Positions 31,989 to 33,524 of a DNA stretch of 64,000 nucleotides are shown in pieces. Within the stretch, counting starts at the first letter, position 1. The number at the start of each line of letters is the position of its first letter. The stretch is from Thermoanaerobacterium sp. RBIITD (GTDB lineage Bacteria > Bacillota > Thermoanaerobacteria > Thermoanaerobacterales > Thermoanaerobacteraceae). The DNA is taken from the NCBI RefSeq assembly GCF_900205865.1, contig NZ_LT906662.1, forward strand, positions 1,687,411 to 1,751,410, given 5' to 3'. The notes beneath the pieces were generated by a model. It was not told where the DNA came from. It ran no database searches and saw only the letters and a program-made list of their open reading frames with translations. The position numbers and the translations under genes were made by a program.

Positions 31989-32065
31989 GGCGGCGTAGCT
32001 CAGTTGGCTAGAGCATGCGGTTCATACCCGCAGTGTCGGTGGTTCGACTCCACTCGCCGCTACCA
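31989..32065 (+). tRNA. Elongator tRNA-Met (anticodon CAU), ICE integration site
   Basis: 77 nt, acceptor GGCGGCG/CGCCGCT with CCA encoded, anticodon loop TTCATAC. It lacks initiator features and matches the Bacillus elongator Met pattern. The last 44 bases are overlapped, antisense, by the 3' end of the serine recombinase gene, so this tRNA is the integration target and stays intact at the left junction. Confidence 0.96.
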
Positions 32066-33524
32066 TCCATGTACAAACTTTTTGATTAATCGAGATTTTC
32101 AAAATTGCCTCAACCTTATCATGGTAGACGGTAATTTTTTTTATATATGTAGGTAGCATAGCTTTTATTTTCTTTCTGTCTCCTTTGGTCAAAATATCTT
32201 TATCTTTTATTAAATATGCTGTTATCATATCTTCTGTTATAATACTTACATCAGGTTTTAATTCCAATTCTCTTAATCGTATTTCAACTTCATTCTTCTG
32301 TTGCTCAAGCTCGGTCAATTTAGCATCAAGGCTCGGATGAAAATGTCCTGCTGCAATAGCATCTACAATAGTAGAAATACTTTTATCTATTTCTTCTTTC
32401 CTTTTTAAAAGTGTTTTTTGCATATTTTGCCTATCACTTATAATTTCTTGATTTTCTTTGTTTAAAGATTTGGCAATTTGAGGTATAATATCATCATTAA
32501 AAATTTTTTCCTGCAATTCACTCAAAATGTAATTTTCTATCATATCTTGGTTTATATCTTTATTATCACATTGCTTTGTACGTTGTTTATTATTGCATCT
32601 GTAATATGTATACTTTTGTTTTCCTAAACAGCCTGTCATACTTGCACCACAAATACCACATTCTATAAGTCCAGAAAGCAAATATATTCTTTTTACATTA
32701 TGTGCAGCTTGTGTCCTTTTTGCTTTTTCCATCTTTTTTTGTACCTCCTCAAATAAATCTTTATCTATTATTGCGGGAATAGCATTATCTATTATAATTA
32801 CATCTTCTTTGCAAATATTATGCTTATATTTAGTACCTTTATTAAATATGTATTTTCCAATATATTTTTCGTTTTTTAAAATATCATGCAAACTATTTTT
32901 GCTAAAAGTATTACCTTTTTTAGTTTTATAACCATGCAGATTTAATTCATCTATAATATGTCTATAACCATAGCCATCATTATACATTTTAAATATAAGT
33001 CTAACAGCTTCAGCTTCTTTTTCATTAATAACATAATGTCCATTTATAATATCATACCCAAAAGGCGGTATGCCTCCATTAAATCTTGCTTGAAATGCAT
33101 TTTCTTTTAATCCTTTCATAACCTCTCTTGCAAGATTTCTTGAATAATATTCAGCCATACCTTCGAGAACACTTTCAAGTATTATACTTTCAGGACTATC
33201 ATCAAGTTGTTCTAATACAGATATAAGTCTAACACCATTCTTTTTAAGCAGACGTTTATAAAAAGCACTATCATATCTATTTCTTGCGAATCTATCTAAC
33301 TTATGTACAATAACAGCTTGAAATATGTTCATTTCACTATCTTTAATCATTTGTAAAAATTGTGGTCTATCGTCAGTAGTTGCTGATTTTGCTTCATCTG
33401 CGTATATTTTAATAATTTCAATATTATTTTTTTCTGCATATTCTTTTATTGCTCTAGCTTGTGCTTCAATTGATTCTTCACGTTGATTATCTGAACTATA
33501 TCTACAATATGCTACTGCTTTCAT
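32022..33524 (-). CDS. Large serine recombinase (ICE integrase)
   Basis: 500 residues. A resolvase catalytic domain has the nucleophilic Ser10 in YCRYSSDNQ and HKLDRFARNRYD. It is followed by a recombinase domain, a zinc ribbon (CGICGASM ... CNNKQRTKQCDN) and a coiled-coil arm near residues 370-430. It would integrate and excise the ICE. The last 14-15 residues, from about MVAASGVEPPTLRV, are encoded by the reverse strand of the tRNA-Met gene, so the C-terminus depends on the integration site. ATG start at 33524 with a weak GAGG-type site. Confidence 0.95.
   Translation of the reverse strand: MKAVAYCRYSSDNQREESIEAQARAIKEYAEKNNIEIIKIYADEAKSATTDDRPQFLQMIKDSEMNIFQAVIVHKLDRFARNRYDSAFYKRLLKKNGVRLISVLEQLDDSPESIILESVLEGMAEYYSRNLAREVMKGLKENAFQARFNGGIPPFGYDIINGHYVINEKEAEAVRLIFKMYNDGYGYRHIIDELNLHGYKTKKGNTFSKNSLHDILKNEKYIGKYIFNKGTKYKHNICKEDVIIIDNAIPAIIDKDLFEEVQKKMEKAKRTQAAHNVKRIYLLSGLIECGICGASMTGCLGKQKYTYYRCNNKQRTKQCDNKDINQDMIENYILSELQEKIFNDDIIPQIAKSLNKENQEIISDRQNMQKTLLKRKEEIDKSISTIVDAIAAGHFHPSLDAKLTELEQQKNEVEIRLRELELKPDVSIITEDMITAYLIKDKDILTKGDRKKIKAMLPTYIKKITVYHDKVEAILKISINQKVCTWMVAASGVEPPTLRV
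32041..32075. other. Probable attL junction of the ICE
   Basis: Chromosomal gene content stops at the tRNA CCA end (32065) and element genes begin at once. The recombinase frame crosses this point. The exact crossover dinucleotide cannot be fixed without the empty site or attR. Confidence 0.6.

Follow-up and report, generated by a model that had tools for sequence, protein, structure and literature searches.

The window, that is, the whole stretch of 64,000 nucleotides analyzed here, contains a cluster of three tRNA genes (Leu, Met and Met; 31809-32065, plus strand) whose last member is overlapped, on the opposite strand, by the gene of a large serine integrase. The features considered in this study are the following.

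31809..31898, plus strand: tRNA-Leu, first gene of the tRNA cluster
31908..31983, plus strand: tRNA-Met (CAT), second gene of the cluster
31989..32065, plus strand: target tRNA-Met (CAT), third gene of the cluster; the element rebuilds its 3' acceptor strand and CCA
32022..32053, minus strand: host-written integrase end (SGVEPPTLRV codons and stop), within tRNA-Met and beyond the 12-bp core as seen from the element
32022..33524, minus strand: large serine integrase gene, integrated-state form, 500 aa; open frame with Resolvase, Recombinase and Zn_ribbon_recom domains
32054..32065, plus strand: 12-bp core TCGCCGCTACCA, identical in attL and attR; crossover predicted at the dinucleotide TC, 32054-32055
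32056..32083, plus strand: left attP half-site, overlapping the last integrase codons; inverted repeat of the element far end
32102..32142, plus strand: predicted intrinsic terminator of the tRNA operon (hairpin and T-run), antisense within the integrase coding region
33581..34012, minus strand: ImmA/IrrE-like metallopeptidase (Peptidase_M78), beside the integrase gene
34009..34455, minus strand: HTH repressor (ImmR-like)
61215..63113, plus strand: TraG-type P-loop conjugation ATPase of the element

Integrase gene, target tRNA and borders of the element

The three Pfam domains of the integrase, found in one protein of about 500 aa, all scored above their curated cut-offs, and a search of the genome with the PF07508 profile gave a single match. 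The catalytic domain is N-terminal and intact, and the conserved domains end upstream of the junction. The C-terminus reads ...NQKVCTW followed by MVAASGVEPPTLRV and a stop, and its end lies within the tRNA-Met gene at 31989-32065, in antisense. This agrees with an earlier note on this DNA, according to which the integrase frame crosses the element boundary and stops in the tRNA. The note had counted about 14 residues added in this way; MVAA and SGVEPPTLRV are indeed read there, but the M-V-A-A codons lie in or beside the core and are identical in both states, and the host-specific part is limited to the 10 residues S-G-V-E-P-P-T-L-R-V, the first base of the S codon being part of the core. Likewise, the boundary is inside the tRNA as had been stated, although the true border is the 12-bp core at 32054-32065 and not the tRNA end.

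The same tRNA cluster was found in relatives of the genus with or without an element behind it, and the target tRNA-Met is apparently the sole copy of its type. A long attR-type repeat of the tRNA was first sought across the genome, and no long tRNA copy was found. Given that the shared core is just 12 bp, attR was located by means of the flanks of relatives having an empty site; the chromosomal genes lying behind the tRNA in G006 are picked up again in the host genome about 177 kb downstream of it. The matching attR, which the earlier note had proposed to look for, is at G000:C1:1873627-1873647 (sequence GGTAGCGGTTCGCCGCTACCA), at 154,172 bp from attL, which is the size of the element. Identity between attL and attR is confined to the 12 bp of the core, one border having the whole tRNA-Met and the other this tRNA fragment. 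As an independent check, the attR of the element in G005 joins GTAGCGGCGA to the flank that G001 and G007, in which the site is empty, have behind the tRNA.

The rejoined attP showed an inverted-repeat match of 17/25 centred on TC, compared with 2-10 at neighbouring centres, and this symmetry places the crossover inside the tRNA. The predicted excision-circle junction of the element contains GGTAGCGGTTCGCCGCTACCATCCATG. In five tmRNA prophages the border was at the same position, with a 12-nt core, TGGTGGAGG[CT]G[AG], and G121 shares two more bases. The boundary is thus not well outside the tRNA and the predicted attP ends the protein differently, both in keeping with the earlier note. Right after attR, from position 1873648 of C1, there is a remnant of the 3' end of another serine integrase, belonging to the type found at the same tRNA in G005, which indicates that the tRNA site was used before by another element. 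In addition, tandem elements were observed at the same tRNA in G012.

The conjugation genes identified on the element consisted of the TraG-type P-loop ATPase. The element also carries, all on the plus strand, an IscB-like gene (RRXRR and HNH, 50322-51887) with a HEARO (omega) RNA directly before it, a TnpB/Cas12f-like gene of IS605 type (57450-58544), two extra NusG-type proteins (35719-36063, in which no KOW domain was detected, and 45340-45873), a complete ADP-ribosylglycohydrolase gene as cargo (42690-43667) and a 942-aa protein (38535-41363) with many degenerate 'KPD/EPEK'-like repeats. A CRISPR-like long array of regularly spaced repeats is located at about 1889500-1894600 of C1, about 15-21 kb past attR, and is present too near the same tRNA in G001.

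Two tails of the integrase and their conservation

The element is seated so tightly in the tRNA that the integrase gene lacks a stop codon that belongs to it. The final 10 residues of the protein are read from the host tRNA when the element is integrated and would be read from its far end when it is free, giving W-MVAA-SGVEPPTLRV in the first case versus W-MVAA-NRYLLRANFRKKQVI in the predicted circle (ends joined in silico), each followed by a stop. The free-form integrase had been proposed to have a different tail, and both the predicted attP and the relatives, in which one integrase occurs with two tails, bear this out. In Thermoanaerobacterales, tandem arrays and attR borders have VAA-NRSQ[LI] and a stop, while the tRNA-joined copies have VAA-SGFEPPTLRV and a stop. 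Among phage relatives, L107 (tmRNA-joined) and L109 share the integrase through LLVEA and then continue as RGVEPLSEDA... and as HRDPSNPNYQQPFKMQISIPIIGYRHR with a stop, respectively, and L132 and L133 constitute a second pair with the same integrase and two tails. L109, L143 and L133 run on into phage lysis genes (translated amidase-like ORFs, identified by eye), as would be the case for an attP carried by a phage genome. Integrase activity may depend on the tail and, with it, on the integration state.

The integrated tails vary in frame, sequence and length among members (GVEPPTLRV, RGVEPLSSP, GAKGI with a stop, GEGNRTPVRK). A conserved integrated tail was ruled out, since members enter the tDNA in different frames, and the resemblance between groups at the start of the tail (NR, EP) was discarded as protein evidence, as it comes from one DNA motif, GAACCGC, read in two frames.

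This tail arrangement is a trait of the whole related integrase family and not a one-off. The search of 399 genomes of the phylum yielded 21 relatives at E ≤ 1e-90, and in all of them (21/21) a tRNA or tmRNA gene was present in antisense, at most a few hundred bases downstream of the int 3' end. The target genes in the clade were tRNA-Met, Glu, Ala, Leu, Gly, Arg and Trp, plus tmRNA, the tmRNA calls of L127 and L137 being doubtful (odd tag). The integrase frame reached the tDNA free of stops in 34 of 36 distinct integrated copies, with the stop inside the tDNA in 30, beyond it in 4 and before it in 2 (L090 and L095). Over the 45 nt that precede the tDNA (n = 36), a stop was present in the integrase frame of a single copy (1/36), versus 34 and 31 in the other two frames. 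Stops being so abundant in the other frames and so rare in that of the integrase, the frame is kept open to the border beyond chance, these counts being from related, partly metagenomic sequences that are not independent.

The far-end tails look selected, because their variation is frame-specific and synonymous. In six YRH-type phage tails there were 65 synonymous codon differences in frame, compared with 15 and 11 in the shifted frames; the differences by codon position were 122, 79 and 178, and the pN/pS of divergent tail pairs ranged from 0.25 to 0.58. Records of integrated phages, when searched, did not contain the phage tail, probably because the tails diverge and the records are trimmed; the far end of the integrated prophage G079 showed the tail (...SI.I..YRH) instead. 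For NRSQ[LI] and its stop, the codon differences in frame comprised 22 with the same residue versus 8 with a changed one, the corresponding values in the other frames being 2/28 and 0/30. It must be noted that this tail lies within the attP arm, where a constraint at the DNA level could mimic tail conservation. The far-end tail of the window, NRYLLRANFRKKQVI, was compared with that of one relative only (G023), and no frame preference was seen. In the L227 free-form model the tail forms a third strand after the terminal hairpin with moderate confidence (pLDDT about 65), and in the L195 model it forms a strand after a low-confidence linker.

Another integrase group was also observed. In L280, L281 and L283 the circle-form tails are conserved (..V[WY]RNVFAI..) and are followed by terminator-like sequence, and L282, of the same group, ends at the presumed border.

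A predicted terminator within the integrase 3' end

The hairpin at 32102-32142 has a folding energy of -12.7 kcal/mol (z of -4.4 versus dinucleotide shuffles), and none of 300 synonymous recodings was as stable. Terminator-like hairpins with p ≤ 0.05 versus synonymous recoding were present in 22 of 35 integrated loci, with sequences that differ between loci. In the empty site of relatives, a hairpin and T-run lie close behind the tRNA, and the element displaces this original structure by over 150 kb. The claim that the tRNA promoter transcribes antisense to the integrase 3' end has to be corrected in view of the conserved terminator at 32102-32142, and what would stand of it is a read-through of about 80 nt past the tRNA end. 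The terminator should limit tRNA read-through into int to about this length.

Proposed mechanism, alternatives and significance

We consider it fairly probable that attP overlaps the 3' end of int, with a stop borrowed from the joined DNA, and that the circle tail is selected and its loss alters or weakens the resident enzyme. The proposal builds on what can be read directly from the sequences, i.e., borders, core, symmetry, tails, family occurrence, frame-specific far-end conservation in relatives and terminator. The attachment site of the element overlaps the 3' end of its own integrase gene, which has no stop on the element side of the crossover and takes it from the DNA joined to the 12-bp core. 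On integration into tRNA-Met, the core restores the tRNA 3' end and the integrase gains 10 antisense-tRNA residues; in the excised circle, the far end, 154 kb away, would join the core and provide the other tail and stop. In addition, the element would give back to the tRNA operon the terminator that the insertion separates from it, in antisense within the integrase gene. The circle-form tail would be the selected C-terminus and would serve integration in a new host, and its loss on integration may change, weaken or redirect the resident enzyme, which could help to hold the element until its own regulators act. More tentatively, the true C-terminus and stop, often with the int terminator, might reside at the opposite end of the element, to be joined only in the circle, such that integration would swap a selected piece for tRNA antisense and act as a state switch, the same stretch of int carrying the tRNA-operon terminator in antisense.

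The overlap could also be passive, attP abutting int for compactness, with the enzyme complete before the crossover and both tails neutral and ending at the next stop. We find this explanation rather doubtful, and it nevertheless stays a serious rival. It agrees with the differences in frame and length of the integrated tails between members, with the short circle tail in the window's own group and with the conserved domains finishing before the junction, and the attP arm sequence is itself constrained. It agrees less well with the conservation, as protein, of far-end tails past the arm in the phage relatives, with the variation of NRSQ[LI] mainly at synonymous positions and with an integrase frame that is open exactly up to the border.

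That the element is a degenerate, immobile remnant whose attP form never exists seems unlikely. Its large size (154 kb), its IS and group II intron-like genes and the remnant of another integrase that follows it, a sign of decay at the locus, would fit such a history; against it stand an intact integrase, 92% identical to one located in a different tRNA of another species, T. butyriciformans (G007), the symmetry between the two ends and an intact conjugation ATPase. Finally, peptides antisense to tRNA genes are common false ORFs, and the post-core frame might be one of them, the real protein ending earlier through an alternative stop or a frameshift. Such an annotation artefact is very improbable given that there is no in-frame stop before 32024, that one continuous frame contains the recombinase domains and that 35/36 members have no stop in the 45 nt preceding the tDNA.

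Tail exchange on integration, which our preferred reading involves, already has precedents in Mx8 IntP, Dehalococcoides dsiB and streptococcal rumA ICEs. According to the 2011 report on the Dehalococcoides ssrA-GI (PMC3146451), the 3' end of the serine recombinase DsiB always overlaps attL, its stop is only in ssrA or in the neighbouring island, and the authors raised the possibility that the functional form is the circular one, which alone may encode the full enzyme. The window integrase likewise overlaps attL and has its stop in a host gene, but DsiB is CcrB-like, has DsiA as a partner and targets tmRNA only, while here there is a tRNA-Met target, a single PF07508 match and ImmA/ImmR-like neighbours; far-end tail selection, paired free forms or an embedded terminator are not reported in the passages covered. 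In the rumA-inserted streptococcal ICEs, which have a single serine integrase, integration swaps the 3' ends of integrase and target, and both C-termini change (PMC4701971, 2016); that target is a protein gene and is altered, whereas the window tRNA is restored intact. For phage Mx8 IntP (Tojo, 1996), attP is reported to be inside the integrase gene, with a new C-terminus upon integration and, in later work, a changed specificity (PMC4383910, PMC6070905). A C-terminal change of this type is present here by the predicted attP and the natural pairs in relatives; Islander lists Mx8 among integrases defined as tyrosine (PMC4383910). Archaeal SSV-type 'suicidal' integrases have the att site within the integrase gene, in the region matching the tRNA, and self-splitting integrases have been termed exclusively archaeal (PMC8371274); these tyrosine enzymes are cut into two inactive halves, whereas in the window the exchange affects only the last 10-15 codons and leaves the catalytic part intact. 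The tRNA islands of Islander likewise restore the tRNA 3' end and leave a fragment at the far border, but by means of tyrosine integrases, serine integrases being described there as not known to target tDNAs (PMC4383910). Within the part of the literature covered, the new points are that this serine clade targets tRNA genes, that the detached tail shows signs of selection and that a predicted terminator is embedded in the integrase gene.

The clade brings tRNA and tmRNA genes into the target range of a family that had been described as not using them, and its conserved terminator suggests how an element can enter a tRNA operon without harming its transcription. If the proposal is true, integrases cloned from the annotation of integrated copies would carry the wrong tail, which matters for their mining. 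Serine integrases are in wide use for inserting DNA in one direction, and the source of their one-way behaviour is a central question. Should the circle yield an enzyme different from that made after insertion, the direction would be partly written in the gene's own end.
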